In this document: positions 27,803 to 59,134 of the stretch, piece by piece
Numbering within the stretch: the first letter of the stretch is position 1
How the letters are laid out: the number at the start of each line of letters is the position of its first letter
Origin: Owenia fusiformis
Lineage: Eukaryota > Annelida > Polychaeta > Sabellida > Oweniidae
Direction: 5' to 3'
Assembly (NCBI GenBank): GCA_903813345.2
Contig: CAIIXF020000009.1
Coordinates: 7,434,030-7,498,029, forward strand
DNA: 64,000 nt
Notes under the pieces: generated by a model
The model's input: only the letters and a program-made list of their open reading frames with translations
The model's database searches: none
Told to the model about the DNA's origin: nothing
Translations under genes and position numbers: made by a program

Positions 27803-27844
27803 ATGGCAAATAATGTCAAGGTTGCTGTTAGGGTTCGGCCTTTC
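27803..27844 (+). CDS. Kinesin exon 1: motor beta-1 strand, start codon
   Basis: Encodes residues 1-14, ending KVAVRVRPF, the first conserved strand of kinesin motors. It ends in phase 0 immediately before ATATCCTT, the U12-type AT-AC donor. No GT donor nearby would keep VRVRPF intact. Confidence 0.85.
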
Positions 27845-30800
27845 ATATCCTTGAAAAAAAAGAAAAATATCATTCATAATTTCATTAATACCAGATTACA
27901 TATAAAAGAAAATTGCGACTACAGGGTGTTCCAAAAGTAAAAGAACTGGTGCTGGCATTTCGTCAATTCTGCACCGAGTTTGTTCAAATTTTTACAAATT
28001 ATACTTTGAAGTAGTGCAACTAGAATTGCAAAGTTCCAGAAAAAATGATAAAATGCGGGTAGAGTTATGGGTACTATAGTAACATGACATCACAATACTC
28101 GGGGCAACTTTTTCATGAAAATGTAATATCTAACATTTTTGTATTACCGAAGAAATTATCCAATTCCCCTATTACAATACAACATTTCTTGATTGTTTTA
28201 TTAGTTGCTTTGTAGTAATGGTATTGCTTTACAACTCAGATTCAAATATGATTTCATAATAATAATATTTATTCAATTTCCTGGGATATCACTATGTATA
28301 ACAGCCTGCACAATTCACGGTTGAGTTTTGAAAAGACCCAATTTTAAGCCAGTCGTCCACCTTGGTAACTCGCCTGCACACAAGTCAGCATTAAAGACCA
28401 CTGCAGCTATAGAGGAGCTAGGTCTTGAGGTTTAAAATCATGCACCATGCTCTTCTGATCATGCAATATCTAATTTTTATTTATATGGAGAATGGAATAC
28501 TAATCAGCGTGGTAAGACCTTTAAAGATGAGAATGGCCATCTCCAAGTTGTCCTATCGACCTTGCGTGACATGTCCTCAAATGGGTTCACTCATGTGTTT
28601 GAGTCATGGATACAGAGTGCTACTCTTGGGCTGACCAAAGAGGAGCCTACTTTTCAAAGTAGAGGATACATAGAAATATCAAATGATGTATTTAGCAAAT
28701 ATAATAACCACCGGTTGTTGGATTTTAACTTTGATATGGGATGTACAAAATGCTTAAAGTCTCTGTAACTAGCTGCGTGGAATGTTGCCCCGGGTATTGT
28801 GATGTCATGCTACCATAGCAACCATAGCTCTACCCGAGTTTCATCATTTTTGTCGAAACTTTGCGTTTTTAGTAACAATATATGAAAGTGCATTACATTA
28901 TGTAAAATTTTGAAGATGATTGGGGCATATTTAACAAAATACCAGCACCAGTCCTGTTACTTTTGGAGCACCCTGTATAATTTATTTGATAAAGGTAATA
29001 CGATAAAAATTTGCTATCTAAGATTATCATTTAGGGAACATATATACCCTTCATAATGCCGGCAACGTATTTTTCATAACACTAACGGGCACCCGCTGGC
29101 GTTTCCAGAGTTGAAGAGGTACCGTAAAAACTAAGGTACTCTCTAGGGAGGTATGTTAAAATCTCAAAAAGTAGGTCAAATGAGGCCAAAAGTAGGTCAA
29201 AGTAATAAAAGGAAGAGATTTTTTGTGTATTTTTTAATTTTTCAATTAAGCAACAACATAATGCACATGTAATACGTTATTATTTGACATTGCATATTGG
29301 TTGAGTATTGGCTGAGAAAAAAACGTTTTAGTGCATTACGTCCAGCGAAAACGCAATCTCGCAACTGGCCAAGTGTAAAAAATAGGCATATTTGAGCCAG
29401 AAGTTGCAGCATTAACATGAAATTCAACATAAGTTGGTTGAATTAAGTTACATATTTTGTTCATATTTGTTCCATATAATGTTCAAGATCAATGCTATTC
29501 TACACATTTAAAAGACTATATGACGATTGAATCTTGGTTCTCAGTAGGTGCTGATGTTTTTTATATTTAAGAATTTTAATAATATAATTTTGAAGTAATA
29601 TACTTGATTAATGATTATACCAGAGACATGAAACACACACACACATTTTCAAGATTATCACATTATCTTTAACTGCTGTGTACAGTCAACGTGAATTGGA
29701 CAACCATGCAGAGCTGATTATAGATATGCAAGGACCCACGACGCTACTCACCAATCCAAAAAAGCCTAAAGCTGATCCTCAGAGGTTTACATTTGACCAT
29801 TCATATTGGTCACATGATGAATATGAAGAGACATCAAGCGGATATTTGGAACCAACTTCAACAACTTCAAAATACACCGATCAGGTATCCTACCTCGAAC
29901 TATTCATCAGTTTATAAGCCGGTTTTGTAATATATACAACAAATATTGAATAGATAGCCACAGATAAGCGACATAAAAATCAAAGTATCGTTTTCGAGAT
30001 GTGATTATCCAAACTGGTGGAGTCTTTTAAAATAGGCCTAATAGAGCAAAAGGCAGAATCAGATCTATCGGGAATGACAAAATTGTAAGCACCATGAACA
30101 ATTGGCCTACCACTTCCTTTTGATCTCAAATACTTTATTTCAAAAAATATCCGCGATATGTTATCAATATTGGTGAAGTTTTCAAGATTCAATGTGCAAA
30201 ATTGGGGGCAAAAGGTTTAAATTCTCCCAAATAATAAAAATGGTAACCATAAAAATAGAATAATAAGGTATTATTGGAAAAAACTTTAGTTTTCCTGCAG
30301 GCATTACAAGGAATAACATGAGCAAAAATTTCCAAAAATGGAAACAATATTTTTGTTTAGCTTGCTCGCTTGATCTGATTCTCTCGTTAAATGTTTTTTT
30401 GACATTATATTTTAATTTTCAATATACTGTAAGGAGATCTAGAAATATATGAACACTAGGGTCACTGGTATATATTCCCCCTTACTTAGACACTTTTTGA
30501 CAAAAGTAATACCCATTGGGGATTATTGGTTTTAAATTTTATCAATAGGAAAAAGGACTTCAAACGCCTCTCGCCCCAATCGTTTTCTCAAAAATACCAT
30601 CAGAGATTTCAATTGACAGAAAACATTTGAACATAAAAGGATAGGGAGCATTTATTATGTGTTTCGCATTCAAATGGTTTTACTTTATAGTTGACAATGT
30701 ACAAGGACCTTGGACAGGACATGTTAATTAATGCCTGGGATGGCTACAACTGTTCCATATTTGCCTATGGTCAGACAGGGAGTGGGAAGTCTTACTCCAT

Positions 30801-33800
30801 AATGGGCTATGGGGCAAATAAAGGTATGCTTCAAATAACGCTCCTGTACACGATTCTGTCTGAACCACACACATTTGAAGATCATTAGATTTACTTATTC
30901 AGGATACATACGCAGATAACAATTGTGTAATTCTATCATTATATGTTTTTGTATTTACCACATAGGGGCTAGTTAATCTGCCTTTGTAATACGCTTTTTT
31001 GTTTTAGGTATTGTACCACAGATTGTTCAGAATCTGTTCAAGGATATCGCAAGTAAAGAGAACAAAGACATTGAACACCAGGCAAGAGCAATTTCGAACT
31101 TGATAGTTTTACAACTTAATTAGAATTCCAGTTCCGAAGAAACTGTATTCTAACATTATGATACTCATAGCATCTTTCTGTTTCACCTGATCTCAGGGCT
31201 GAGAAGAAATGGGTTGTCATGGTTTATCATGATGGTATTCTATTGTTATCCGACCGAACGAAGTTCATGGGGATATAGAGAAGCCGTCCATTCGTTAGTC
31301 CGTCCGTCCGTCTGTCCATTCGTTCGTTCGTTTGTCCGGGCGATAATTCAAATACAAGTAGAAGGATTAGTTCAAATTCGATAGGCTTATGCTTCATTGG
31401 TGTAGGGCCTCTGTTGGGGAAATAATTGTCAATATGGCCGCTCAATTCAAAATGGCCATAGTTTTTCTTAAAAAAACGTAATCTTGATAACTCAAGTAGT
31501 ATTTGACGGATTTTGTTCAAATTTTATATGCTGATGCCCAGGGAAAAATGAATTTGTTCCAAAAGAAATGTTCAAGATGGCCGCTGAATTTCGAAATGGC
31601 AACCCTTTCGTAAAAATGTAGTTTATGATAACTCGAGATGGTAGCTGAAATGGCAGCCATTTTTTGTAAAATTTTTGATAACTCAAATACCAACTAGTAG
31701 AAGGATTTGATTCAAATTTTATATGGTGAAACCTAGGGACAAATGAACTCTGTTCAAAAAGAAATTTTCAAGATGACTGCTTTTTTGTTATCAAAACATG
31801 TTTTGTTCGGTGGGATTCGCTACTCCGAGGAGTTGCTGTTTTCTGGTTTTTATTCTTTTGCTTCTTCAACTCGGAGGCTAGTATACACCGTCATATGTGA
31901 TGTCTTCAAGGAGGGAAATGTCATTTTTTAAATAGGCTATCAGGGGCGTAGGAATGAGTATATTCAACACTACGCCAAAAAATATGAATCAGTTGTGTCA
32001 AATCTTCTTTATCAAAACGCCTATTTTATGCTCGTAAATCGTCATTTTATGGCAATACCTTTCTAATGTGCTTAAAATGTTCTAATGTAAATGTTAATTT
32101 TCTCGAACGATAAAGACTACCAATTTCCAGATAACAATTGGAGATTTTTAATCATTTTTGAATAATTGAATTTAGATACATAGTATTGTCTGATTCCGTG
32201 TACCGTGCAATACAGATTAAAGAAAACTAGTATGATCAATCAATTTAAGAAACATATTCGTGGTCAATGATACAATTAACCCTTATGTCTGCACTCTCAA
32301 ACCTTTTTTATAACACTTATTCCCGATACCAAATAACCCCCCCCCCCTCCACGAAGGTCAAATCGAGGTCAACGTAACTTAGGGGGTGCCAAAATGCTAT
32401 ATTTCCTAAAGAAATAATCTATTATCTTTCAAATGAAATCAAAATCCAGGTAATAGCTTTTCTAGAACTGAAGTTATACTTTATGTACTTTCAAAGTACA
32501 TAATCGTACATAATTTAACATTCATATTTCAAGAAGTACTACTACATGTAATAACAAGAAAATAGACAATTGCTGACTTATTATTCCAATATAATTTCGG
32601 TCTATGGTTTTGCCTAGCAAAAAATTGCAAAGGTATTCATCAAGTAGCTTTTGAAAAAATGTTTTTCTCTCAAATTGTGATACACTAGCTGTGATACACT
32701 AGCAATATGGAATAATTACTTTGTATTTTCTACAGTGTTAGAATAGAAACAAGGCAGTAACTTTCAATATTTTATGAATTTAATTTTTCAAAAAATGTCA
32801 TTTATCTTTGGCACAGAAACCTTGCAAAAGAGTACTATTGAAAAAATCGAGCATCTTGTGACCAGCGATGCGTGACCGATAATCACTTGTTTCCAGGATC
32901 TTGGGGGTCTCTGGTACTCACAGGTCGTGATCATTAATCGACAAACGTGATTTATTTTCCGTTCCTCGTTCCTGACTCCAAGTGGCTAAGTTCGAGTTGC
33001 AGCCATATTTTCTAAGTCCGAAATATTGCCGAAATTTCCTAAGACCAAAAGTAGTGAATATTTTCTAAGTCCATTTTGTTTCAGTTTCCTTCCGTAGTTA
33101 AGTTAGCATTTGATTGATTCCAATTTCCGAATGAATTTATTGCAATTCGGCACTTGTTTATATACAGGTAGAGCAACATAGATCATTCTGTCAAAATATT
33201 GCTTATATTAGCTATAATTTGGGCTTAAATTACGCTTAGCTTGCAGATATTTGAAATTGTATTTAGATTTTGATTGGATAATAATAAACATCAATATTAT
33301 ATTTTTGACAGAAAATCGTGTTTTGTTACTATAAATACATATGAACCAGTTCCAACTTGTTGCAGGTGAAACAGTTTAGGTTATGTTAAGACAGAAAATC
33401 TTACATCAAATTGTATTACTCATACCTGTAGACACTTGGATTATTATTACATTAATTTATATAAATTATTAATTGATTAATTAATTATAATTACCAATTA
33501 ATCTGAAAAGCGGGTTGTAACAATATCATATGGTATCCAAAAACATTTCTTTGGGTTAGCGAGCTCGAGATTACGTTTAAAATTTATGCACAATGAGAAA
33601 ATATGACTAAAGAACATAGGAAAATATTTAATTAATAAGCCTTTTTATTCTCACTTTTCAACACTACGCACTGGCGTTTTGGCGTACATTGTTCCTACGC
33701 CACTGGCTATTGACCACCTTTTCATGGCAAAACGCCAATATTTTACATTCTATGTCGTCATGGATTAGTCAGATAATAAGGATGTCCAATCATAAGCTTG

Positions 33801-36800
33801 AAAAGGATTTCTCTTATTACTGAAAAGTGCTCAGTTGCTACAATTGATACCTTAATATTAACATCACTGCTAGATAAAAATTTGACAGCTACTGGAAGAA
33901 TATTAAATTAGACACTGAAAAATCACAAAAAATGATAACAGTAATTAACTACGAACCTGCAGAACTTTCAAGATAGATTTCAAACATGGGAAAATATTTT
34001 ATTACAATTGACAGACTAGATATGCAAAGCATTTACAAAATTGAGGAAAGACTGGCACATTGTATTTAGAACACAAATCAAAGAGATGTTATGACATATC
34101 TGTAATTAAATTATAGGTAACATTCAGCATGCTTGAGATCTATAATGAACGCGTGAAGGATTTGTTAAGTAAGAAAAAAGCTCCAGCAGCAGGACTTAGA
34201 ATACGACAGTCGCCCGAGAAAGGATTCTACGGTAACTTACTTTATATACTAACTTTGCGTTTTCCTTACGTCATGTTTAAGTTTTTCTGATGATTCAGAT
34301 ATTATTTTATCACTTGAATGGGCTATCACTTTAGCATGGGCTCTAATTGAAAGCCCATGGCTTTAGGTAGCAGATTTTCGTAATATATTTTATTATCTCC
34401 ATTTAACCCTATTTCTCTGTTTCACAATTACATAAGTTATGATCTAGCAAACTCGTAGGTGGTGTTGAGAAATACAGCGTTCAAAGAGAAATTCATCCTG
34501 TCTCGGCGAAATAACCATGCGATGTCATAAAGATGATCTTAATGAATTCTTTCGCAAAACTTATCAAATTCAATATTGTTTCCCTTTCTCTGAATTAGAA
34601 TCCGAAATCGAAGTTTTTCAAGATAGATGTACCGAAACTTTCTCAAGAAGTCTTTTCTGCAGTGACTCTAATAAAATAAAATTCTATTTCATGACTTCCA
34701 GTGGTTAATCTGAGAGAAGTTCCCGTGGGAGGTTTTGATGAAGTAAAGTCACGTATGGACGAGGGAAACAAAAATCGTACCATAGGACGAACTAAAATGA
34801 ATGAAACCAGCAGGTACTAGTGGCAATAATAAACTTTGAAGATGAAAGTTGCGACTCTCCGACATTTATTAAGTTTGACTTGTGTTATGCAGATAATGTG
34901 AAGTAGTTGTAGAAAAGGTGTATACTGAGAATAAGGGCAAATGCCATTTATCCTCTCAATAACAGTTTTCCTAAAAAATAGTACATACTATTCCACATAT
35001 TTCGGTTTATATTTTTCAGTCGAGCTCATACTATAGTGTGTATAAACTTCAAGCAGAATCGAATCCATGAAAAAGTGACAAAGTACTGTTCCATTAATCT
35101 AGTAGATTTAGCTGGCAGTGAAAACCAACGGCAAACGCAAGCCGAGGGTCAGCGTTTCAAAGAATCGCGGTCGATCAATTTATCACTATCAACGCTTGGT
35201 CGAGTCATCGAAGATTTAGTGCAGAAAAAGAGACATATTCCTTTTAATGATTCTGTTTTAACAAAGCTGCTGAAGAACGCCCTAGAGGGGAACAGTAAAA
35301 CCACTATGATCGCTACCATTAGCCCGGATTCTGAGAACTATAACCAGACATTGTCCACATTACGATATGGTAAGTTTTGTTCTTGGAAAAACTGGAATTT
35401 TCCATTCTCTGACCTACTGTTCTAGTTTCATGACTTTACATTTAAATTATACGGAATAATGTACTTCGCAAATTCATGAGACTCTTTTTGTAGCTGATAG
35501 GGCAAAATCCATCAAAACAACTGCCGTGGTTAATGAATCCGAGACGAGTAAGCTAGTGAAAGACTTGAAACATGAAAAAGAGATACTTCTTCAGGAATTA
35601 AGCAACATGAAGTCTGCTAGAAGCTATGAGAGACAAGGTTATTCAGAAGAAGGTTGGCATATGAATATCAATTTTAAACATGAACTCTCAACAAAGCTCT
35701 CTTGTTTTCAAACACTGCTGTTACGGGTGTATTGGTAATCACTGGAGAGGTTAAGCTAACGATGTTTTTCACAACGTAACCGTGAACGCAAAGTACAAAA
35801 ATTAACAAAGGAATGTATCGAGCGCTCATAGTTTTATGCGCGCTTAGTCTACTTCAGATACTCTTTCAGCTTCAGAGTTTCGCGTTTAGAACGGGAGATT
35901 ATACAATTTGACGTTGGGTCAACGGGAACCATTTTACTCGTGTCTATTGAACACTATGCTGTCAATTTTGATTTCGATGCACAGTTGAATTCTTGCTGAA
36001 CACGATGATGTATGTCATGCATGATTTAGCGCCAAAAATCTTACGAAACGAGCTCGTTTAAAATATGTATTAGAAAACCAGCTATAAAACCGCATCAATG
36101 ATACTATAGAATCATTACACGCTATGGTGTAGTCTAAACAAACACTGGATTTGAACGGCTATTTATATGAGAAGGCTACATGAATTTGTATATGGTCGAG
36201 TGATACGTACAGGTTCAGTTTCGATTATATATGCAAAGCTTAACCTCTCCAGTAAGTTGCATTAACCCTAACGTTTGCTACCCTTTGCATTCGTTCGACT
36301 GCAGCTCGACTCGACTTCGAGCTTTGTCTTCAACTAGACTCTGCGCGCAGGGTAAATGTTTGCAACCTTTTTATAACACTAATGCCTTGGTCACATTACC
36401 TCCGATTTTTACTACGGCGCCCGGCCGATTGAGTATTTTGTTCAAAATTGAATACAATATTGAACAAAACACTCAATCGGCCGGGCGCCGGCCGATGGAT
36501 CGGAGCATATGTGACCAATGCATAAGTCGCAATGTAAATAATTATCAATGTAAATAAGCACAGTGATCTTGGTTCCTCCCAATAATATTTGATTATACAC
36601 ACCACCAAATCATCTCAATGCGTGAGAACCTTCATATACTTGATTTGAGAGTGGATGGTGTATTATTTCAGTGACTGGTTCATAAGTTTATAATTCCAGA
36701 TATACAAAGAATCAGAGGGGAAATAGAGGCTGACCTTAACAGTAGTATATCAGATTTAGAAAAATCATGGTCTGAGCGATTAGAGCAAGCAAGAAAAGAT

Positions 36801-42800: not shown

Positions 42801-45800
42801 TGGCTCATTTCTTCATGCCACGCAATGCTTTTTGAATCATTTGTGGGTTCTGGCAGAGAGCAGCAACCTCATTGGCGATTCTCTCTCGTAGTGTACAATG
42901 TCTAAAACTTGGTCCAGAGCAGATTTTGGACCGTTGTGCAAAAAGAATGATTATTCGGTGGCCCACATATGAATAAATGACATATCGTTGGAAAGAAGAG
43001 ATACATGGCTTCATGATTAACTAAATTGAATCAATGTATGTATCGCTGGATTTATAATTTTTCAATGTTTTTGTTTGTTGCGTTTACACTGTACACTGTA
43101 CTGGAATATAGCATGTCATTCATTGAGCAAAAAACACTTTATATTTTTCTTTCAGGATTTGTTTTGGAATCAAAACTTTGTATGTGTTCCACTCTCCTGA
43201 TGAGGCCGCAAAATCGAGATTCCAAGACAACGTACTGACTTCCATAAGCTTTGATACTGCATATAGCGAAATGAAGCAGAATTCTGGTATTGATCCATAC
43301 GAGTGTAAGTATTTCTCGGTATTAGACTTGTTTTAACACTATGCGAAAACTGAACAAACAACACACAATTTTAATAAAAATGTCATATCTAATATAATAT
43401 TATGATAATGTACCAGTTTTATGCCTTGGCATGTTGCACCCTAGGTGACATCATCGTGATGTCATTTGTGATGCAAAAACATTTTCAAAAATTAAAAAAA
43501 ATATGTCTGTGTCAATCTTTTTTAAATATGCAGACCGTTCAAAATACACCAATGTTTTCTGTCTTACATGTCTTAGAAGAATATATTATGTTTTGAATAT
43601 TACTGTGCCATTAGTTTCTACGACAACTAAGATTTTAAAAAGCACTTTTCTCTGAACAACTTTCATACATGAATGAATCCATTTCTGGCTTATGTATCAG
43701 CTAATTTTCTTAAATCGACAAAGAAACAGGTTAGGATGAATGCTATGCATTGGTGTGAATTATCGCTTTCATTATATCAAAAGATATGTAAAACCTTTAA
43801 AATTTAGTTTAAAAATAAATTCACGTTTTACGAAATTCAAAAAACAGTTTCATTATGTCACACTTTGATAATATTGGGTAAGTCTACAATATAAGCTAAA
43901 TTGGTTAAAACTTTATATATGGCCTTTAATAATAATTACATTAGATATTGCTGATGAGCCGTTCAATATCGACATACAAAGATTGGATCCAGATGGCATT
44001 GAGGAAGATGTAAATTCTGATGAGGAATGTAGTGAAAATGCCTCAAAGATACAAAGCGATGAGACATTTATGTTAGAAGAAACAAACTTAGAAACAACGA
44101 CTCCCAAAGATGCATTGAATATGCCATTTTCAAGCAATGAGAAGACAGGTACAGTTGTAAATAACATAGCATCTAAAGATTGTACTGAAATAGCTATCCC
44201 AGCATACCTAAAAAATGAGTTCATATTCAGATCTAGTAACATTTATGTCCTATGCATGCCTATGCATCTCTGTAAACAACATAAAACTCCGTTCGGAGGT
44301 AATTGAAATTTTGAACATGCGAACATACCTTACTCAGGTCTATGATTTGTTACACTGTTCCTATAAAATCATACCAATATGATGCTGTTGTCTAAATGTG
44401 AAAAGAATGAAATCCATATCGAATTCAATCCTGTACCTAAAAAGAAGACCTAAATTACAAACATTAATGAATTAATGATACACCTGTTTTTCAAATTCAC
44501 ATTTTCAAGGTATCTAAATTGGAGAATGTATACGGATAAAATCAAGTGTTTAAAAGGTGGTAAGCCACATTAGTTATATAAACATAATATGATGCCATTT
44601 AGATTTAGATGAAGTTTTGAAGAAGGATCCCGACGAAGCATTCAGCCTTGATGGTCAACAATTAAAACTTAAAGGGCAATTCAAACCTGACATAGCATGT
44701 GATGATGACAAATACATGATAAAGGTGTCTAACCTGAAGCCAACAACACATTATGACACCCTGAGTATGTTCTTTGAGAGCGAAGAGAAAACTGGTGCTG
44801 TTGCTGAAAAAGTGGAGTATGAGGGTGGCTCTGGAATGGCCTTCATAACATACGGCGAAAATACAGGTATAAATCTTTAAAAGACAATATATTATGATAT
44901 GAGTAGGAGAGCATTATAGTACAAGTACATAATAAAATCAACATTTCAAGCATATATCTAAGCATGGATAATTAAATATGTGTTTTTTCAGACTTAGATG
45001 AAGTTCTGAGGAAAAATGCTGATGAACCATTTAGTATTGATGGTCAGCAAGTAGAACTAAGTAAAGCGAAACTCAAACCGCATATACAATGCTATGATGA
45101 CAAATACATGATAAAGGTGTCTAACCTGAAGCCAACAACACATTATGACAACCTGAGTCTGTTCTTTGAGAGCAAGAAGAAAACTGGCGCTGTTGCTGAA
45201 AAAGTGGAGTATGAGGATGGCTCTGGAATAGCGTTTGTAACATACAGTGGAAATACAGGTAAAAATCTTTATTTACCCATAAATAGTGAAATCTTAACTT
45301 TTTATCCCTTTCTAGAATATTACAAAATATGATAGAATCAACATTTAAAGTGTTGCAACATTTTATTGTAAGCCCAGCTTAAATATGTAATTCTAATTCA
45401 GATTTAGATGTAGTTATGAGGAAACATGCCGATGATCCATTTAGCCTTGAAAGTCAGCAATTAGAACTAGATAAAGTACAACAAAATCGTATTCACAATG
45501 TGATGATGACAAATACATGATAAAGGTGTCTAACCTGAAGCCAACAACACATTATGACAACCTGAGTCTGTTCTTTGAGAGCAAGAAGAAAACTGGCGCT
45601 GTTGCTGAAAAAGTGGAGTATGAGGATGGCTCTGGAATAGCGTTTGTAACATACAGTGGAAATACAGGTAAAAATCTTTATTTACCCATAAATAGTGAAA
45701 TCTTAACTTTTTATCCCTTTCTAGAATAATACAAAATATGATAGAATCAATATTTAAAGTGTAGCAACATTTTATTGTAAGCGCAGCTTAAATATGTAAT

Positions 45801-48800: not shown

Positions 48801-51800
48801 AGTGGAGTATGAGAATGGCTCTGGAATAGCGTTTGTAACATACAGTGGAAATACAGGTAAAAATCTTTATTTACCCATAAATAGTGAAATCTTAACTTTT
48901 TATCCCTTTCTAGAATATTACAAAATATGATAGAATCAATATTTAAAGTGTAGCAACATTTTATTGTAAGCCCAGCTTAAATATGTAATTCTAATTCAGA
49001 TTTAGATGTAGTTATGAGGAAACATGCCGATGATCCATTTAGCCTTGAAAGTCAGCAATTAGAACTAGATAAAGTACAACAAAAATCGTATTCACAATGT
49101 GATGATGACAAATACATGATAAAGGTGTCTAACCTGAAGCCAACAACACATTATGACAACCTGAGTCTGTTCTTTGAGAGCAAGAAGAAAACTGGTGCTG
49201 TTGCTGAAAAAGTGGAGTATGAGAATGGCTCTGGAATGGCCTTCATAACATACGGCGAAACCACAGGTAAATGTATTTTTATCCATGGATTGGAATGTTC
49301 ATGAAGATAAATGTCTTAGTAGTTATCCTTTTTCTCATGGCGACATTTAATATACGCAAAGCTTTCATTTCATACAGATTTAGATGAAGCACTGAAAAAG
49401 TATGCCAACGTCCCATTCAGCCTTGATGGTCAGCAATTAGAACTTAGTAAAGTAGCACCCAAACCGGATAAGGAATGCGACGATGACATATATTATGACA
49501 CCGTGAGTACTGCTGCTGATAAAGTGGAGTGTGAGGATGCCTCTGGAATAGCGTCCAAAACACATGATGAAAAAACAGGTACATATTATTTAGTTCATTT
49601 GTGAAGTGTAACAGCTGTTTAGTAACAGACGTCTGATGAAAGGCCTTAAATAACGTACACTGAAAGAAATTCGCGGTAAATCAAAATCGGTCTATATGAT
49701 CTAAAACGTTTTCCCCTAACAATAAGCGATTCCTTTATTCTATCCCTAGTAAAACTTGGTATCCATTGAATATCATCATCATATTAAGATATGACTGTCC
49801 ATCTAAATAACTCTAGGGCACGGCGACGGTATGGTGGATTTTCTCAAAGCCTACGACAGTGTCAAGTTTGATTATATTGAGCATGTACTGAGAGTGTTTA
49901 ATTTTGGAGATGGCCTGATCCGATGGGTTAAGATGTTTAATAATGATATTAAGAGTTGCGTCCTTAACAACAACGTGTCAACTGGCTGGTTTAGTGTTAA
50001 ACGTTCATGCAGGCAGGGGGACCCGATTAGTTGTTTGAATTGGACTTTTAGGGATAATAATATCATATGACACGAATGCAAATAACAGAGATAATTTTGA
50101 AAGAAAGTTGAATATGCTTGAAAAGGTTCTTATACTGTGGTCAAAACGAGATCTTACTTTTCATGGAAAGGTACATAATAAAAGAGGCTCTATGCCATAG
50201 GATAGCACAATCAAGACCCCTCTGAACTTTTTTGCATGGTGAGTTTCACCCATATATACCCATCTACTTACCAAAGAAGAAGTCCCAAATCCCCCTCTTT
50301 CAGTGTTAATTTTGCGATTGTGCTGGCCGATCTAATTATTTTCGAAGAAATTAATTCAATCTGAAGTTTGAATATACCGGGAAAGTCCTCCTGTTATCTG
50401 ATTGGTCGTTGAATTTGTTCATCATAAACCTGATTGGCTGCCTGGTTCAACGCGCTTGTGGGCGCCTGTGTGACTCAATGGGGATTCCCCTGGCTAGCCG
50501 AGGAATCGATTGTGTTTACTTCTGGAGTTTGGTTGTTCTATTGATTATTTCCGATATTTCGGCAATAATATACCCAAAAGTTATTCTCAAGATATATCCA
50601 TGGTATGTGAGATATTACATGAGCAATAACAATAGGACATCATTGACCCCTATTACACAGGCCGGTTGAAATGTCTCGTTACGAAGCATTTTGACAAAAA
50701 GCTTCGTAACGAAGCAATTTAGGCCAGTGTAACACCTCCGCCTTCATTAGAAAAGCTTAGTTGATAACGAAGCAATTGAGTAGAAAATTCAACGAAGGTA
50801 AGGTCCCAACGAAGCTTTTTTGGCTAGTGTAACTTCGTTAGAAAACGCTTAGTTTGCGGTTTGCGCATGCGCGTAATAAAGAGCACATTCATCATTTTGT
50901 ATTAAATGAGGGAAATCGCGAGGAAAAATACGTTTTTAAGTACGTATAATATGCTGAGTATTGATTAAAATAATTAGCCTGTCTATTTACGTCACTGATT
51001 ACGTCCCCTGCCTTCCCTCGCATATGCTTGCTTACTAAATAGAATGACGTGGTATACATTTTTGATATTTAGATTTTTGTTCCTCGTATAATCATACCTT
51101 GAATATAATTATAATTAGATGTTAATACCATGATACTATTGCTTCCCATTCAGTCAAATCAGGGATTTAGCTGATTTAATTTATACGAAGATGCCCCTAC
51201 TCAGAAATCGTATTCAACTGCCTATCGCCCTAGCTTTTGCAATTCTTATCTGGTCGTTCCATTATTTTATTATTCGACGATTTTAATAATTGAAGTTAAA
51301 CTTTATATTGAAATAGATTGAATTAATGTTTCAAAACTACCGTTTTACATATGCGGTAAGACCTGCGAACAAGGAACGCTCTGCCAAAACTGTTCCTTGT
51401 TGACAGGTATTTGCAACAGAGAGGGCCTATGTGTTAGGCCTGCAGCCTCGAAAACCAAAGTCCCGCCTAGGCATTCATTATTGTTGCCTTTTAATCATTG
51501 ATGTGTCCTAAGACGTTGCTTACAACTGATATTCAAGTTTCTTCCTATTTGCGTCATTTTCAAATTCAACTGACGGCTGATGAATTAACATACTATTTTT
51601 ATGGCCAGCTCATTCAAATATGAATGGTATAGTGGCGGGTAATATTCATATTAAAATGAATTGGTCATGAAATAGTAAGTTAAACCAGCAGCCAAATCCG
51701 AGATATTTAATAATGGCGACACTATTTGAATCACGTAATATCATGGTATAACTGAGAAGCCCATTTGGGATTCGTTTTTATACGATATTACATACTTGCC

Positions 51801-54800: not shown

Positions 54801-57800
54801 TTACATCACAGCTCATATATTTTATTCCCCAGTGTTCATTAAACACCTTGAGCATGGTCACACTTAATTTATATCTAGTTCAGATTATTTACTAAATGTT
54901 AAACACAAAAATTAATTGCCAAAATAGTAAGAGGTATTCTTATTAATTAAATTAGTTATCTCCTATTAAATGCCAAAATTAAGGATTTTTCTAATTATTA
55001 TTCCTTTTTTTCTGGAAATATTATATAATGTTTGGTGATATTATGTACAAAGTTAAATCTGAATTGTACACTATCTATTTCATTGGGGAGTTAAATCATT
55101 CTTTTGCAGCAAGGTATCAATAAGTTATATAAAAATGTAATGACCTTCAGTAGATGCCAGTAGTCAGTTCCCAGTTTCACCACGAGGTGGCTAACTTAGG
55201 TCATATGTAAATGATAGGTATAGGGGAAAGCTGCTCTATTGTTCAATATTCAGAAGATTTATTGACATTTTGGATTTTGCGCATCTTGTCGAGTCTTTGA
55301 TCACCCACTTTTGATATTAGGCGATCTCTGTACATACAGTGAAATTGTTCATCGGTGTCACATGTTGGGCACAACAAAGTATTATATCTTACAGCGCCCC
55401 CTATGATTTACATCACAGCTCATATATTTTATTCCCCAGTGTTCATTAAACACCTTGAGCATGGTCACACTTAATTTATATTTAGTTCAGATTATTTACT
55501 AAATGTTAAACACAAAAATTAATTGCCAAAATAGTAAGAGGTATTCTTATTAATTAAATTAGTTATCTCCTATTAAATGCCAAAATTAAGGATTTTTCTA
55601 ATTATTATTCCTTTTTTTCTGGAAATATTATATAATGTTTGGTGATATTATGTACAAAGTTTGGTGTTCTAACTTGAAGGAGTTTCTGAGATAAGGCTCT
55701 ATTTGCGTTATTTGTTGATCACCCCTTGTATTTTATATTTGTGGCAAGGCGTGTGATCTACGTAAACTTAGCATGTTTATGTACCTCCTATCCTCTGAAG
55801 CAAAAAAAAGAAATATTGACTTCTACTGAGGAAAATGTATTCCATGGGCTTCACATACATTTTGAGGGGCTGTTCTACTTAAGTTAGATACAACTGTTAG
55901 TCTGAGATTGAAAATTATGTCATGTTTAGTTACAGCCTCTTATAACTAGTAACGTTGAGGTAATTGGGCTGTTATTGTAAAAAGTTATATTTCTCCATCA
56001 CAAATGTACCATCCTTTGCATCTGTCTCTGTCAACACCCTTTCAGGTTAATTTTCGGAATTTTGCTTTCGCCATCATTGTACATACAGTATATATTCATC
56101 TTGCTATTAAGAATATTTAGAGAACTTTTCCTTCTTTATTTTCACACTTTCGAAAAAATGACTTAGTCAGAGAATGGCCTCTTACTGGAATGTCCCCTTT
56201 GAAAATATGTTAATATTTTATATTTGGGGGGATACGACAACTAAATGGCATAACTCTCTAAATAATGGCCTAAACCTTCCATTATATCTTTAAAATGAAG
56301 CCGAAATATGTCGCAATTATATAAACACAACAATTGTGTCAGAAAACGTGTGTGTATCAATATAATTGTTGGCGTGAGACTGCTTAAAATGCAGTAACAA
56401 ACACATGTTTTCTCAAGCAAGTATTATAAAATTATGAATTCGAACTTTGTTTTGTAGACCCAAGTGGATAGGTTTACTCTCGTATTATTATTCAAAATGA
56501 ATGTGAAATCCTTGAACAAGGCCAATTCTTAAAAATGCAATCCCAAAGATTTTGAGCATGTATTAAACATAGGCATATTTTGATTTGGCAAACTCCATAT
56601 TTCGATCAGTAGGATTTTTTGTTCCTCGACATTCTGTTCTTCTAAAATTTGAATAAATTTAGTAGTCAAGATTTATTGTATTAAAGTCAATTTTGAGACC
56701 CTGGCTTCCGTAATATATGCATTTTCTTTCTCATTTTCTAATCTATATCAGATGTCAAAATCGTTTTGCAGAATTTGAAGTCTTTAATTGGGATTTGTTC
56801 AATTTCACCAATCTAGTTAACTACATTATTATAATATATTTTTAAGGCCTAGAAACCGATGAAGACGAAGACATGTTAGAAAGTGACAGTGACTTGGATA
56901 CAGAATATCAGAGCGCCCTTCAGAAGAAAACGAATAGATCGGGACATTATATAAGTGATAAAATGCGCGTAAATGTTGGAAATGGGATGGATAAAAGAAG
57001 TTGTATTGTTCCTGGAAAGCCTTCTTTTTATAAAATTTCTGCAATTCGGGCTGGAATTAAGTGGTCTGAGCCAAGGTACGATCAAGGAATGTCAGTAGAA
57101 TCATATGAAATTAAACTGAAAGGTGCAAATGAGAAATCGTGGAAAAGTTTGAATCACGTAGTAAAGCAAAGTACTCCAGGGCGCCAAATCGAAATGCAGA
57201 ATGTCAAGTTACAGGCAAAAAATCCCTATTTTGTCAAAATCGCGGCAAAATATCAAGATAATACAACTAGTGATTATAGTGAGATTAGTGACATGTTTAC
57301 CATAGAGGCGACTGGTGAGGATGTGTTCAAAGCAAAGATTCTCGAGACCTGCTTTACCAGTGCAGAAGACAAAAAACCTGCTGTATACCAAATGAATTTA
57401 ACAAAAACATATGGAGAAAAAGATGGATCGATCTTTAAGTATGAATATGGAAAAAGAAATCCTAAAATGACAAATAAAGTCGTCCTAGTCGTTGGGGCTA
57501 CAGGTGCTGGCAAAAGTACCTTGATCAATGGATTGATAAACTATATTTTTGGAGTAACTTGGGATGATAGCTACAGATTGAAGCTCATAGCTGAACCTCA
57601 TGCAAGCAAACAAGCCGTTAGTCAAACCAGGCTAATAACTGCGTACACCTTACATTATGAGACTGGTTCCAGAGTTCCATATACAATTACGATAATTGAC
57701 ACGCCTGGCTTCGGTGACACGGGGGGTTATTCAAGAGATGAGGAAATCACTGGACAGATACGTGAACTCTTTACCAAATTTGGCACAGAGGTAATTGATC

Positions 57801-59134
57801 ATATTGACGCAGTGGGGTTCGTTACGCAAAGTTCTCTTCCACGTCTCACACCAACACAGAGATACATATTTGATAAGATATTATCATTGTTCGGAAAGGA
57901 CATTGGAGACAACATTCTGATGATGCTAACATTCGCAGATGCTCAAGAGCCACAAGTGTTAAGTGGTATAGAAGAAGCGGGATTTAAATATAAGAAATGT
58001 TTCAAGTTTAACAATTCGGCCGTCTTCGCAGAAAAGAAAGGAGTGGAAAGCGTTGAGATGTTTAACAAAATGTTTTGGAACATGGGCGAGGAGAGTTTCA
58101 AGCTGTTTTTCGATTACCTTGTCCGTTGTCAACCTAGAAGTCTAACTCTTACCAAGGAGGTATTGGAAGAGAGGCATCGGTTAGAACTATACATGGGTGG
58201 GTTACAACAAGACATATCGGAAGGATTAAGCCACTTAGAAAGTTTGACGAAAGAGGTACAGGTTATTATAAAAAACCAAGCACTCATAGACGCCAACAAA
58301 GATTTTGATTACACCGTTGACGAGGAGCACACAGTTCGAGAAGATATTCCCAATGGCAAATACGTGACAAACTGCTTACAGTGTAATTTCACCTGCCATT
58401 ATCCATGCATTCTTTCTGACGACGACGACAAATACAACTGCGGGGCAATGATGGATACAAAGGGACCAAATGCAGTTTGTGCATTTTGTCCGAAACGCTG
58501 TTCGTGGAAACTACACAAGAATATGCCATATCGATTGGTTATACAAATTGAAACAGTACAAAAGACCTCCCAGAATTTAAAGGAACGTTATCAAGAAGGT
58601 GTGGAGGGAAAGATGACAGCCGACAATTTGAAACATCAGGTGAAAAATGATTTCAAAAAACATCAACTTATGATGTACATGCGAACCGAGGCTGCAAGAA
58701 AAACTCTCAAAAGGCTTAACGAAATTGCACTTAAACCAAACGCAATAACGACTGTGGATTACATCGACACACTGATAGAGGCAGAGAGATCAGAACACCA
58801 ACCTGGTTATGAAAAAAGGATAGCCCACCTTCGAAAACTTCGAAAACAAACCGAAATGTTTGATAAAACAGTTAAAAACGGAAAAAATCCATTTGCGGAG
58901 CACATTGATTTGATAATAATATCCGAAGAAAAGAAAAAACATGACGGATACAAGGAGCGAATAAAAGAATGGGAAGAAATGAAGGAAAAAGTAAGTACAG
59001 ATACTGATTTGTCAGAATTGCTCCACGACATGCCAGAGCTAGAAGGAATCAGTGTTCCACAGAAAGGTATGAGTAGCATTTGGTCTGCGCTTAAAAAATT
59101 TGGCAACTTCCTCGTTCCCCAGAAGTTTGCCTAG
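27803..59134 (+). CDS. Chimeric kinesin-FHA-(RRM-like)n-FN3-GTPase gene (whole model)
   Basis: Reconstructed plus-strand gene of 26 exon-like segments. Coding spans are listed separately. Without the frameshifted repeat exon at 45402-45667 they total 6,831 nt, or 2,276 residues and a TAG. Order: kinesin motor (1-345), neck/helical segment (345-426), FHA region (440-560), acidic linker (580-647), RRM-like array (648-1514), FN3-like domain (about 1570-1670), P-loop GTPase (about 1720-1960), Cys/His cluster (about 2024-2080), charged helical tail. The motor resembles the kinesin-3 branch of KLP-6/KIF28. All introns from exon 14 onwards are phase 1, including the join to the last exon. The motor-FHA part is firm. 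Joining the RRM exons is well supported. Joining the GTPase exon is likely but crosses 7.3 kb. The alternative is a second gene starting at the ATG at 56873. Confidence 0.7.
27922..28975 (+). mobile_element. Mariner-family transposon, degenerate, with TA target site
   Basis: The inverted ends CAGGGTGTTCCAAAAGTAA and its complement are flanked by TA. Plus-strand frames across about 28350-28690 read [22 protein letters not shown], then [22 protein letters not shown] and FESWIQ. These align with the mariner transposase C-terminal half (NAPAHKS, SPDLAPSDYYLF, W---C). Stops and frameshifts show it is inactive. A 5'-truncated relative is at 61335-62415. Confidence 0.85.
28976..29683 (+). other. 3' part of intron 1 after the mariner copy
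   Basis: AT-rich intronic sequence. No further repeat or coding exon was seen before the branch site near 29668-29674. Confidence 0.4.
29684..29884 (+). CDS. Kinesin exon 2: motor residues 15-81
   Basis: Encodes [17 protein letters not shown], then the kinesin [12 protein letters not shown] block (kinesin-3 typically FxFDYSYWSH). It starts after the AC acceptor and ends CAG before GTATCC, phase 0. It is long for this region because of a Ser/Thr-rich loop. Confidence 0.9.
29885..30690 (+). other. Intron 2
   Basis: GT-AG intron of 806 bp, phase 0 at both ends. No mobile element with clear ends was recognised. Confidence 0.6.
30691..30823 (+). CDS. Kinesin exon 3: P-loop exon
   Basis: Encodes [18 protein letters not shown], then [14 protein letters not shown] with the P-loop at residues 108-115. 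The following MGYGANKG is close to KLP-6/KIF28-type motors. It starts after TTTATAG in phase 0 and ends in phase 1 (AAA G, then GTATGC). Confidence 0.95.
31008..31081 (+). CDS. Kinesin exon 4
   Basis: Encodes [17 protein letters not shown] (residues 126-150), following the P-loop helix. It starts in phase 1 after GTTTTAG and ends in phase 0 at CAG before a GC donor (GCAAGAG). Confidence 0.9.
31082..34116 (+). other. Intron 4: GC-AG intron with dispersed repeat
   Basis: A 3-kb intron. The donor is CAG then GCAAGAG, the usual strong context of GC-AG introns. The acceptor is TTATAG. Joining gives [16 protein letters not shown] in frame. 31237-31720 holds a dispersed repeat with a degenerate TCCG/TTCG simple repeat (about 31290-31340) and two diverged direct ~190-bp copies (GATAACTCAA...TTCAAGATGG). 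A C run is at about 32338-32348. No exon was seen in the rest. Confidence 0.75.
34117..34231 (+). CDS. Kinesin exon 5
   Basis: Encodes [17 protein letters not shown] and then [13 protein letters not shown] (residues 151-189), the conserved EIYNE-V-DLL segment plus the following strand. It runs from phase 0 to phase 1. Confidence 0.93.
34702..34813 (+). CDS. Kinesin exon 6: switch I approach
   Basis: Encodes [19 protein letters not shown], then [14 protein letters not shown] (residues 189-226). The NETSS-RAH switch I element is completed by exon 7. Acceptor TTCCAG, donor AG-GTACTAG. It runs from phase 1 to phase 2. Confidence 0.93.
35020..35369 (+). CDS. Kinesin exon 7: switch II and microtubule-binding region
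   Basis: Encodes residues 226-342: RAHT (switch I end), [10 protein letters not shown] (switch II DLAGSE at 255-260), [46 protein letters not shown] and TLSTLRY. Loop 11 and the start of helix 4 are unusual: [16 protein letters not shown] replaces the common ERA-STGA-G-RLKEG. Runs from phase 2 to phase 1. Confidence 0.95.
35494..35637 (+). CDS. Kinesin exon 8: neck region
   Basis: Encodes [16 protein letters not shown], then a Lys/Glu/Leu-rich helix ([17 protein letters not shown]), the kinesin-3 neck. The donor is uncertain: CAAG before GTTATT (end 35637) or AAG before GTTGGC (end 35652). Both are phase 1 and differ by five codons. The total length given elsewhere uses the first. Confidence 0.85.
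35638..36699 (+). other. Intron 8, contains a hairpin MITE
   Basis: About 1.06 kb. Contains the perfect-stem element at 36384-36521 and a block near 36285-36356 (CTCTGCGCGCAGGGTA) also seen near 770-790 and 1220. Confidence 0.6.
36384..36521. mobile_element. Hairpin MITE with GC-rich stem
   Basis: The arms CGGCGCCCGGCCGATTGAGT and ACTCAATCGGCCGGGCGCCG are exact inverted copies around a short AT loop. The outer ends (GCCTTGGTCACAT and ATGTGACCAATGC) also pair. No coding capacity. Confidence 0.75.
36700..36806 (+). CDS. Gene exon 9: coiled-coil-like segment
   Basis: Encodes [18 protein letters not shown], then [17 protein letters not shown], a charged heptad-like helix between motor and FHA, as in kinesin-3 proteins. 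From phase 1 to phase 0. Only this frame is open. Confidence 0.85.
36807..37448 (+). other. Intron 9
   Basis: 642-bp GT-AG intron. Two overlapping open frames (36801-37145 plus, 36824-37126 minus) lie in it but show no family features, and the plus one is simply exon 9 read through. Confidence 0.6.
37449..37563 (+). CDS. Gene exon 10: start of FHA region
   Basis: Encodes [16 protein letters not shown], then [26 protein letters not shown] is the signature that precedes the FHA domain in kinesin-3 proteins. From phase 0 to phase 1. Confidence 0.93.
37564..38191 (+). other. Intron 10 with MITE copy 3
   Basis: 628-bp GT-AG intron. About half of it is the foldback MITE at 37858-38163. Confidence 0.65.
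37858..38163. mobile_element. Foldback MITE, copy 3 (internal deletion)
   Basis: Same family as 11391-11919: CACCGGTGATTCGCTCGATT on the left and CGGATCACCAGTG on the right. Most of the left arm between ATGTCGGA and AATTAAATCGACGATTCTGT is missing, giving 306 bp. Its right end is 28 bp from the exon 11 start. Confidence 0.8.
38192..38255 (+). CDS. Gene exon 11: FHA strand
   Basis: Encodes [18 protein letters not shown], then NGPK/N. The GNGKGQ stretch sits where FHA domains have G-R/x. From phase 1 to phase 2, donor AA-GTAAGC. Confidence 0.85.
38487..38964. mobile_element. Foldback MITE with CAGTGGGCCGTTCTTG end
   Basis: 478-bp element with ~65-bp inverted arms. GTTCTTGTACCGTTCGTAGT on the left is mirrored by ACTACGAATGGTACAAGAAC on the right, followed inward by AATTTATTAATATTCGTAA and its complement. 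A (CTAT)n microsatellite follows at once. Confidence 0.85.
39074..40110 (-). mobile_element. TIR element (CGAGGGTCGTCCCAGAAG) with minus-strand transposase remnant
   Basis: 1,037 bp. The ends CGAGGGTCGTCCCAGAAGTA and its near-complement at 40110 continue inward through ATGCACTAT--GCTCT. The minus strand near 39540-39760 reads [20 protein letters not shown], then [15 protein letters not shown], a helix-turn-helix-like N-terminal segment as in DDE transposases. A second copy starts at 63828. Confidence 0.8.
40169..40791. mobile_element. TIR MITE, copy 1 (CAGTGCTTCCCAAAAAGGC)
   Basis: 623 bp with TA on each side. The left arm ACATTGCAAAACCACAAAAC is mirrored near the right end, as is CCATTGGAAAG / CTTTCCAATGG. 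A non-coding Tc1/mariner-type derivative. The second copy is at 42332-43091. Confidence 0.8.
40828..41437. mobile_element. TIR element (CAGGGTGTCAAATAAGTCCC)
   Basis: 610 bp with TA flanks. The ends CAGGGTGTCAAATAAGTCCC and GGGACTTATTTGACACCCTG are perfect inverted copies. The short frame at 41076-41261 may be a fragment of a transposase, but no diagnostic motif is visible. Confidence 0.85.
41515..41646 (+). CDS. Gene exon 12: core of FHA domain
   Basis: Encodes [19 protein letters not shown], then [23 protein letters not shown]-xI and the NG turn are FHA hallmarks (S-x-x-H, NG). The phospho-contact Ser is replaced by Val-Glu-Asn. From phase 2 to phase 2. Confidence 0.9.
41647..43155 (+). 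other. Intron 12 with MITE
   Basis: 1.5-kb GT-AG intron. About half is the TIR element at 42332-43091, which ends 64 bp before the next exon. Confidence 0.65.
42332..43091. mobile_element. TIR MITE, copy 2 (CAGTGCGTCTCAAAAAACGC)
   Basis: 760 bp, TA-flanked. The interior parallels the copy at 40169-40791 (ACATTGCAATACCACAAATC, then TATGAATAAATGACATAT on the right side). No transposase. Confidence 0.75.
43156..43304 (+). CDS. Gene exon 13: end of FHA domain
   Basis: Encodes [18 protein letters not shown], the final FHA strands (RIxFG---LYVF), then [17 protein letters not shown]. From phase 2 to phase 1, donor GAGT-GTAAGT. The frame of the real exon differs from the longer open frame at 43026-43238. 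Confidence 0.9.
43305..43944 (+). other. Intron 13
   Basis: 640-bp GT-AG intron, phase 1. No mobile element recognised. Confidence 0.6.
43945..44148 (+). CDS. Gene exon 14: acidic linker, possible diverged repeat exon
   Basis: Encodes [18 protein letters not shown], then an Asp/Glu/Ser-rich stretch ending MPFSSNEKT. Like all following exons it is phase 1 at both ends. Its start resembles the repeat-exon segment [14 protein letters not shown] at the same offset, so it may be an eroded repeat copy. No enzyme motif. Confidence 0.8.
44149..44602 (+). other. Intron 14
   Basis: 454-bp GT-AG phase-1 intron before the repeat array. No element recognised. Confidence 0.6.
44603..44866 (+). CDS. Repeat exon R1 (RRM-like)
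   Basis: 264 nt, phase 1 at both ends. Encodes [18 protein letters not shown], the core [18 protein letters not shown], then [18 protein letters not shown] and [10 protein letters not shown]. It is the most divergent full copy, with EE for KK after FFES and one codon shorter than the others. Confidence 0.9.
44992..45258 (+). CDS. Repeat exon R2 (RRM-like)
   Basis: 267 nt, phase 1 at both ends. The first half ([20 protein letters not shown]) matches R6. The second half matches the R3/R5/R7 type ([28 protein letters not shown]). Tyr replaces Asp in the first position of the usual DDDKYM. Confidence 0.9.
45402..45667 (+). pseudogene. Repeat exon R3, frameshifted by one base
   Basis: 266 nt, one base short. 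After GTACAAC it has four A instead of the five found in R4 and R7-R10. Inclusion would shift the frame and stop within about 20 codons. Splice sites are intact and both flanking introns are phase 1, so skipping the exon restores the frame exactly. It could also be an assembly error in an A run. Confidence 0.85.
45811..46077 (+). CDS. Repeat exon R4 (RRM-like)
   Basis: 267 nt, phase 1. Encodes [18 protein letters not shown], with SQHLEL where other copies have SQQLEL. The rest differs from R7-R10 by AIAENVEYE and an R1-type end [10 protein letters not shown], so it looks like a recombinant between two copy types. Confidence 0.9.
46078..46972 (+). other. Intron R4-R5 with nested palindromes
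   Basis: 895-bp intron, longer than the ~143-bp introns elsewhere in the array. It holds an inverted-repeat insertion (46230-46494) and an adjacent palindrome (about 46099-46216, GGTTTTGGATATGGGGTTTATCC with a near-complement). Confidence 0.65.
46230..46494. mobile_element. MITE-like inverted repeat in the array
   Basis: TTATCCTATACCAAGTAGAG on the left pairs with CTCTACTTGGCATAGGATAA on the right, with one mismatch. The interior has short GGGAGATATG repeats. Confidence 0.7.
46973..47239 (+). CDS. Repeat exon R5 (RRM-like)
   Basis: 267 nt, phase 1. Encodes [18 protein letters not shown], sharing ANVPF with R11, then the common core and [10 protein letters not shown]. It is flanked by unique introns, so it is older than R7-R10. 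Confidence 0.9.
47360..47626 (+). CDS. Repeat exon R6 (RRM-like)
   Basis: 267 nt, phase 1. The first half is R2-like ([20 protein letters not shown]). The second half has [14 protein letters not shown], the same variant found in R9. Gln-Cys-Asn-Asp replaces QCDD before the core. Confidence 0.9.
47770..48036 (+). CDS. Repeat exon R7 (RRM-like)
   Basis: 267 nt, phase 1, [18 protein letters not shown] type. Identical to R8 in translation except Gln for Lys in FFESKQKTG. Confidence 0.92.
48180..48446 (+). CDS. Repeat exon R8 (RRM-like)
   Basis: 267 nt, phase 1. The consensus copy of the array: [65 protein letters not shown]. Confidence 0.92.
48590..48856 (+). CDS. Repeat exon R9 (RRM-like)
   Basis: 267 nt, phase 1. 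R8-like first half joined to the [10 protein letters not shown] variant of R6. The following intron also shares the R6 form (GAATATTACAAAAT). Confidence 0.92.
49000..49266 (+). CDS. Repeat exon R10 (RRM-like)
   Basis: 267 nt, phase 1. R8-like first half. It ends [11 protein letters not shown], resembling R1 and R4, and the following intron leaves the 410-bp family. It is the last full-length copy. Confidence 0.92.
49378..49578 (+). CDS. Repeat exon R11, shortened RRM-like copy
   Basis: 201 nt, phase 1. Keeps [18 protein letters not shown] and the GIA-region but lacks 22 codons of the core: after [18 protein letters not shown] the strand and helix with KVSNLKPTT and FFES are gone. In frame and with intact splice sites. 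It still supplies the helix-2/strand-4 half to R10. Confidence 0.85.
49820..50165 (+). pseudogene. LINE reverse-transcriptase fragment (Tx1/L1-like), 5' piece
   Basis: Reads [17 protein letters not shown], then [18 protein letters not shown]-like turn and SCRQGDPIS: the RT palm of L1/Tx1-group elements. In another frame it continues [20 protein letters not shown] and LTFHGK, the usual KLN-W--R-LT-GK block downstream. The YxDD block between them is missing. Confidence 0.8.
50650..52220. mobile_element. Insertion splitting the LINE fragment, GTAACGAAGC-rich ends
   Basis: Both edges carry similar inverted wording (ATTACACAGGCCGG and CCCAGCAGTGTAACAGG), with clusters of TTCGTTA/TAACGAAGC motifs just inside (50674-50830 and 52080-52200). 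No coding capacity. The ends are imperfect, so the boundaries are approximate. Confidence 0.45.
52349..52700 (+). pseudogene. LINE fragment (Tx1/L1-like), 3' piece
   Basis: Reads [37 protein letters not shown] and LMWLKRLLD. This is the FIW-----I-R-TL----GGL-M-----A-KL-W block following the RT domain in L1/Tx1 elements. It continues the fragment at 49820-50165. Confidence 0.8.
52732..54734 (-). mobile_element. TIR DNA transposon, copy 2, with C2H2-finger remnant
   Basis: 2,003 bp. The ends CACTGTATGTACAGAGATCG and its complement match copy 1 at 24691-26655. The minus strand at 54076-54315 encodes CFYC then H-x3-HH (C-x2-C-x13-H-x3-H), a C2H2-type finger that could be the DNA-binding part of a transposase. 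Relative to copy 1 it carries ~160 extra bp near 53628-53785. Confidence 0.8.
53600..55660. repeat. Tandem duplication with internally deleted second copy
   Basis: 53600-53811 equals 55054-55265 (212 bp each) and 54659-55053 equals 55266-55660 (395 bp each). So the 1,454-bp unit 53600-55053 is followed by a 607-bp copy that lacks 53812-54658 (847 bp). The unit spans the right end of the TIR transposon, giving that end a second time at 55341. Confidence 0.9.
55661..56846. other. AT-rich intronic stretch, no feature
   Basis: Nothing recognised apart from simple A/T runs and the splice acceptor at its end. Confidence 0.4.
56847..59134 (+). CDS. Terminal exon: FN3-like domain, P-loop GTPase, Cys/His cluster
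   Basis: Open for 762 codons from a phase-1 acceptor to TAG at 59132-59134. Numbered from the internal ATG at 56873: an acidic lead, an FN3-like domain (47-145: [31 protein letters not shown]), then a GTPase with GATGAGKS (208-215) and DTPGFGD (276-282). [10 protein letters not shown] may stand for the base-recognition loop, though a TKxD is absent. A Cys/His cluster follows from C501 ([12 protein letters not shown], then CAFCPKRC and LHKN). The tail is a charged helix. The set resembles large AIG1/septin-like GTPases of fish and invertebrates with unknown roles. It is spliced in phase to R11, but could be a separate gene starting at 56873. Confidence 0.85.

Follow-up and report, generated by a model that had tools for sequence, protein, structure and literature searches.

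All exons of the gene model considered here lie on the forward strand between 27803 and 59134 of the window (the whole stretch of 64,000 nucleotides that was analysed, C9:7434030-7498029). Thirteen kinesin motor-FHA exons come first; an acidic exon, eleven exons of the RRM-like type and a single large exon with FN3 and GTPase parts follow. We see about an even chance that all of them constitute one chimeric kinesin-3 gene spanning 27803-59134, with its exons predicted to be joined in one mRNA. That the product is a single fused protein, i.e., a kinesin-3 without MBS-MATH tail that carries an RRM-like scaffold and an immune-type GTPase, has in our estimate slightly less than an even chance. The original prediction had read the locus as such a fusion, and this interpretation holds with respect to the identities of the parts and their one phase-compatible frame, whereas its RNA-binding aspect is weakened and the suggested role in immunity is circumstantial. 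Among the literature matches listed, titles and abstract openings describe no protein of such architecture.

The model was rebuilt by hand and its splice phases were checked by script (Table 1). It consists of K1-K13, the acidic exon, nine intact RRM-like exons, R11 and the terminal exon, with the frameshifted R3 omitted, and encodes 2,276 residues with no internal stops. Start (27803), stop (59134), length and the continuous open frame are all as first predicted, and the ordered, phase-compatible exons were recovered at the same coordinates. Every join from K13 onward is in splice phase 1, which supports the single reading frame proposed for the locus. The assignment of intron 1 to the U12 type follows the U12 intron consensus.

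Table 1. Exons and selected introns of the predicted gene model, in window coordinates.
Feature	Position	Strand	Remarks
Exon K1	27803..27844	+	encodes the VRVRPF strand of the motor domain and holds the start codon; exon 1 of the C5 paralogue has the same length and phase
Intron 1, AT-AC (U12-type)	27845..29683	+	ATATCCTT ... TCTTTAACTGCTGTGTAC; same intron type at the same position in the C5 paralogue
Exons K2-K8	29684..35637	+	remaining motor, neck linker, neck coil
K2, K3	29684-29884, 30691-30823	+	
K4	31008-31081	+	GC donor (fourth intron)
K5, K6, K7, K8	34117-34231, 34702-34813, 35020-35369, 35494-35637	+	
K9, K10	36700-36806, 37449-37563	+	CC1 and start of FHA; domain edges from the KLP-6 alignment
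K11, K12	38192-38255, 41515-41646	+	FHA
K13	43156..43304	+	end of FHA and CC2-like start; ends in phase 1, intron position as in the paralogue
Acidic linker exon	43945..44148	+	phase 1 in and out; no Pfam match
R1, RRM-like exon	44603..44866	+	acceptor scores weakly
R2, RRM-like exon	44992..45258	+	
R3, RRM-like exon	45402..45667	+	one-base frameshift (an A run lacks one base); apart from this the same as R8
R4, R5, R6, R7	45811-46077, 46973-47239, 47360-47626, 47770-48036	+	RRM-like, 267 nt each, phase 1-1
R8, R9, R10	48180-48446, 48590-48856, 49000-49266	+	RRM-like, 267 nt each, phase 1-1
R11, RRM-like exon	49378..49578	+	truncated and degenerate, yet open, phase 1-1; acceptor scores weakly; no Pfam match of its own
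Terminal exon	56847..59134	+	acidic start, FN3, P-loop GTPase, helical part, Cys/His cluster, helical C-terminus, stop

The thirteen K exons encode 579 residues, which comprise motor, neck, CC1, FHA and the beginning of CC2. Pfam matches confirm the complete kinesin motor and the FHA domain that had been proposed: PF00225 is matched over profile positions 1-327 of 327 (E 1.2e-102), and PF00498 scores 24.5 bits against a cut-off of 20.7 (E 3.7e-5) in a region after CC1. In the alignment to KLP-6 the P-loop is intact (GQTGSGKS) and switch II reads DLAGSE, both being motifs with well-known roles in motor domains. The closest solved structure by sequence is C. elegans KLP-6 (7wrg), with 484.7 bits as compared to 322.6 for KIF1A, and this alignment extends to model residue 573. 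The difference in score supports the KLP-6/KIF28 identity of the motor-FHA part, which shares with KLP-6 the motor, neck, CC1, FHA, the start of CC2 and an SSRAH switch I.

A PF00225 profile search of the genome (498 Mb, 525 contigs) returned eight loci including the window, among which a gene on contig C5 is nearest to exon K7 (86% over 117 residues; the next reaches 58% over 67). Exon phases of the two copies agree in 13 of 13 cases, the AT-AC intron 1 included, and exon lengths differ in two. Identity amounts to 434 of 577 aligned residues (75%) and varies along the protein: it is highest in the motor (83%), intermediate in FHA (71%) and in neck plus CC1 (64%), and lowest in K13 (48%). The overall dN/dS between the copies is 0.066-0.128 by three methods, with synonymous sites close to saturation; K13, at 0.38-0.62, lies above this overall value. 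The window copy is stop-free at 26% nucleotide divergence from C5, and since none of 5000 unselected simulations stayed open at that divergence, the open state of the motor-FHA exons is beyond chance. A pseudogene reading of the motor is rejected on the basis of dN/dS, the stop-free exons and the simulations. We conclude from the conservation relative to C5 and the lack of stops that the window copy of motor and FHA is an old, maintained duplicate under purifying selection. Elsewhere in the genome, 18 tandem PF00225 matches of similar scores and 158-159 bp spacing, all to the end of the profile (290-327), are found at C2:23266359-23269174.

Beyond the phase-1 intron equivalent to that after K13, the C5 gene continues with further exons, beginning with the MBS exon. 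When three C5 pieces are appended to the last part of K13, they match residues 561-732 of KLP-6 (CC2-MBS and on) at E 8.6e-26; the Pfam KIF1B profile on the C5 tail remains below threshold (E 0.003). A significant match to this tail was found by tblastn neither in window positions 43305-64000 nor in the 16 kb of C9 that follow the window; the queries were nine C5 pieces, of which three belong firmly to the tail and six are putative exons, and C5 17161000-17174000 in all three frames. The 16 kb downstream (L013, L043) gave no match at E 0.01 either with the tail pieces or with the other queries used. In the positive control, the C5 FHA exons recover the window copy (lowest E 1e-17), which is a better control than the match of C5 to itself, as the latter proves only that the queries function. 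Within the window beyond K13 and the following 16 kb, the locus thus has neither the MBS nor the MATH part of a KIF28/KLP-6 tail, and the comparison indicates that the window copy ends at the very intron where the MBS tail begins in C5. According to passages of PMC9314371, KLP-6 has an MBS and MATH tail, of which both parts contribute to autoinhibition and the MBS probably binds cargo; the window locus has the RRM-like array and the FN3-GTPase exon instead.

In their starts and ends the three blocks seem to complement each other: the motor block shows a start but lacks a proper end, the array lacks both, and the terminal exon has an end with an unconvincing start. The acidic exon contains 14 D/E among the 42 residues preceding its first Met (binomial 4e-8), as against a D/E frequency of 5.7% in intron translations, where none of the 1116 open windows compared (overlapping) attains 14/42. 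Coding therefore seems to enter this exon from an upstream exon, and we regard the acidic run as the strongest single point in favour of one gene. The terminal exon displays the same pattern, with D/E at six of the nine residues before its first Met (2.5e-6). Acidic coding ahead of the first Met in both downstream blocks speaks for a single gene that encodes 2,276 residues. Phase alone is weak evidence, because two phase-1 matches are expected by chance in about one of nine cases.

The splice sites are less favourable. Ten downstream sites were scored on a small matrix built on the two kinesin loci (23 donors, 23 acceptors). Four of them rank below all reference sites, namely the K13 donor (0.1; lowest reference 3.4), the acidic acceptor (0.9; lowest reference 1.7) and the acceptors of R1 (-6.3) and R11 (-0.7). 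The terminal acceptor scores 2.0, close to the lowest references, and the R11 donor (8.3) is good. The matrix is not decisive, as the boundaries of R1 and R11, which are fixed by other copies, also score badly. Nevertheless, the weak K13 donor and acidic acceptor would agree with two genes, i.e., a tail-less KIF28 duplicate that reads through the K13 donor and a separate RRM-array-FN3-GTPase gene with a small unseen first exon. With the K13 donor unused, an in-frame stop follows at 43336 and an AATAAA at 43373, 37 nt later. The faster evolution of K13 (48% identity versus 83% in the motor) and eight short first-exon candidates with looser GTRR donors in the interval between K13 and the acidic exon also fit such a split. 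By contrast, the 640 nt of this interval hold no first exon running from an ATG to a GTRAG donor in phase 1, which says little because shuffled sequences average 0.10 and the looser candidates exist. More directly against the split, coding sequence in the acidic exon begins close to the acceptor and is in the very phase in which K13 ends. We consider two genes divided at K13 somewhat unlikely.

The claim of a single gene has evidence on both sides: the lack of a KIF28 tail nearby, the lack of convincing downstream starts and the phase-1 joins speak for it, while the weak splice sites and the polyadenylation signal past K13 do not. We hold our estimate for one gene down on account of these splice sites and because novel fusions are frequently annotation errors; PMC12964723 reports that most helminth-specific fusion genes in one study were judged to be prediction artefacts.

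The array had been described as about nine RRM-like modules. We count eleven exons, of which nine are intact, full-length and in frame, R3 is frameshifted and R11 is short and degenerate. A PF23085 (RRM_PARP14_3) match with E 5.6e-39, covering four stretches in four RRM exons when the acidic exon was scanned together with R1, R4, R5 and R6 (4 of the 11 RRM exons), supports the PARP14-type modules of the original prediction. This profile is a feature that the array has in common with PARP14-type RRM proteins. The array differs from them in the recent tandem expansion of one module, in the loss of most RNP aromatics and in that neither a macrodomain nor a PARP catalytic domain is among the families found in the model parts scanned. 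When placed on the general layout of the RRM fold, the exon edges fall inside the fold, so that each exon completes one module and opens the following one. The search for RRM exons in the same genome gave 14 matches, 11 within the array and three at C5:37.939-37.940 Mb, a locus with more PARP14-type RRM exons and a KH_PARP14_1 exon, which by eye seems to share the exon cut inside the RRM.

Full-length RRM exons differ from each other by 0-16%. The 130 nt 3' of R2, R3 and R6-R9 are near identical, whereas those following the older copies R1, R4, R5 and R10 are 40-67% different and hardly alignable (after R5 and R10 this stretch overlaps the following exon). We interpret this contrast between flanks as an indication of recent duplication. 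In eight copies (R2, R3 and R11 excluded), dN/dS is 0.27-0.82 for each of the 25 pairs whose dS exceeds 0, and the array as a whole appears to be a recent duplication over an older, constrained set.

A canonical RRM has three RNA-stacking aromatics in RNP1 and RNP2 (consensus). RNP2 is IKVSNL and RNP1 is SG[IM]AF[VI]TY in 9 of 9 intact copies, so that all nine keep one of the three. The lack of two of the three stacking aromatics suggests that the array is likelier to bind protein than RNA and weakens the earlier notion of an RNA-binding array, in favour of which it can be said that the best solved sequence relatives of the modules are the RNA-binding hnRNP A2/B1 and A1 (E 5e-4 to 1e-3). NMI (21nh) is a weak match (E 0.038).

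The terminal exon is open for 762 codons. Its FN3 domain, at about residues 50-150 of the exon, is clear by structure, and the GTPase exceeds the cut-offs of two profiles, Septin (32.2 versus 26.2 bits) and AIG1 (32.0 versus 27.0 bits). A G1 motif is present and G3 is DTPGFGDT. The G4 motif is usually [N/T]KxD (NKxD or TKxD), as in AIG1/GIMAP and septin GTPases; here the position is TFAD in 9 of 9 aligned copies. Invariant Cys/His positions are likewise observed across the nine copies. The AlphaFold model of the exon, built with nine paralogous rows, is modest (pLDDT 69.7, pTM 0.58). Toc34/Toc33 and FN3 domains come first among its best 50 Foldseek matches (E down to 1e-6), with TM-scores by target of 0.45-0.56 for Toc GTPases and 0.66-0.77 for most FN3 domains, and septin-3 has rank 49 among these 50. 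Sequence comparison with solved structures finds titin FN3 domains, along with weak matches to septins (E 7.5e-4) and to Toc33 (E 1.2e-3). An FN3 domain and an AIG1/septin-type GTPase are thus supported by profiles over cut-off and by fold matches, and the P-loop and Cys/His parts that had been noted in this exon are confirmed with them by profiles, structure search and the nine-copy alignment. The exon shares the Septin and AIG1 profiles and the Toc34/Toc33 fold with the respective GTPases, and differs from AIG1/GIMAP, septin and Toc34 proteins by an FN3 domain before the G domain, a Cys/His cluster behind it and TFAD in place of NKxD/TKxD.

Searching the genome with the terminal exon gave 13 matches, i.e., the window itself, two fragments beside other matches and ten other loci, of which nine (L015-L023) were examined. 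By eye, seven of the eight aligned related copies (L015, L017-L022) look like single exons with an in-exon start. This pattern would suit a stand-alone single-exon FN3-GTPase gene starting from the exon's own Met, 26 nt in at 56873, next to a second gene of kinesin and RRM array. So would the low terminal acceptor and the 7.3 kb intron before the exon, which holds a reverse transcriptase fragment at 49807-50070 (PF00078, weak at E 0.00076 and below cut-off). Against this late split, acidic coding precedes the Met, the GTPase exon of the paralogue L016 is, by eye, spliced in phase 1 to an exon upstream of it, and beyond the well-scoring R11 donor the sole end seen is a read-through stop; we regard it as quite improbable. 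A tree of eight copies and the window groups the latter with L015, L016 and L017 at 93/95, a grouping on which we do not rely because the branch is below the tool's starred level.

The frameshift in R3, the degenerate R11, the weak splice sites and the reverse transcriptase remnant in the last intron raise the alternative of three neighbouring genes or decaying remnants that yield no joint product. Decay sits poorly with the purifying selection on the motor-FHA exons, with array exons that are more conserved than the introns and with a terminal exon open over its entire length, and we think this alternative unlikely.

A possible link to immunity comes from relatives of the terminal exon. On contig C8 at about 31.13 Mb (L016/L042), one strand carries in succession a CARD exon (PF00619, E 2.2e-10), a TRADD-N-like exon that matches weakly (E 0.0051, under the cut-off; leaving at phase 1 by eye) and an acidic-FN3-GTPase exon, and this arrangement is likely to represent an immune receptor or adaptor gene. 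Passages of PMC7053062 describe an AIG1-type GTPase joined to CARD in the snail Biomphalaria, where the GTPase is combined with N-terminal immune modules like in the L016 copy; the terms kinesin, RRM and fibronectin are absent from the main text of PMC7053062. By analogy with these relatives, the window locus may take part in innate immunity as had been proposed, with the position of its GTPase paralogue downstream of CARD and weak TRADD-N-like exons as circumstantial evidence.

If all blocks belong to one gene, exon shuffling could explain its origin. A KIF28/KLP-6 duplicate would have retained motor, neck, CC1 and FHA and lost the MBS-MATH tail, and splicing from the intron after K13 would have added phase-1 modules, namely the acidic linker, an expanding PARP14-type RRM-like array and the FN3-GTPase exon. 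Kinesin-3 motors are tail-controlled. The predicted protein would be a kinesin-3-type microtubule motor, presumably plus-end directed as its family, in which other parts take the place of tail cargo binding and of some of the autoinhibition. The RRM-like array, multivalent with many weak sites, would probably bind proteins (or RNA), either as cargo or as a scaffold. The G domain, being of septin/AIG1/Toc34 type, could pair in a GTP-dependent manner and so dimerise and activate an otherwise monomeric motor. KLP-6 is a monomer and becomes processive once dimerised according to passages of PMC10945585, and a tail with a pairing G domain might activate the motor for this reason. We predict such a GTP-controlled dimerisation step as a speculative and rather improbable element of the model.

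If true, a defence-type GTP switch would drive the microtubule transport of an assembled complex. The locus would then represent a natural tail swap, evolution's own experiment on how a motor's cargo choice and its autoinhibition come about. Two questions would become testable: whether the G domain gates the motor, and whether immune-family phase-1 modules get grafted onto transport machinery.

Several other features are present in and near the locus. Similar open stretches at 28436-28768 and 61531-61860 flank it and are, by eye, likely copies of one repeat; the former has no Pfam match. The minus strand carries a fully open LINE-like ORF of 1255 aa at 19313-23080, with endonuclease and reverse transcriptase domains, and a single-exon rhodopsin-type GPCR lies at 3390-4763 (PF00001, E 1.6e-34).
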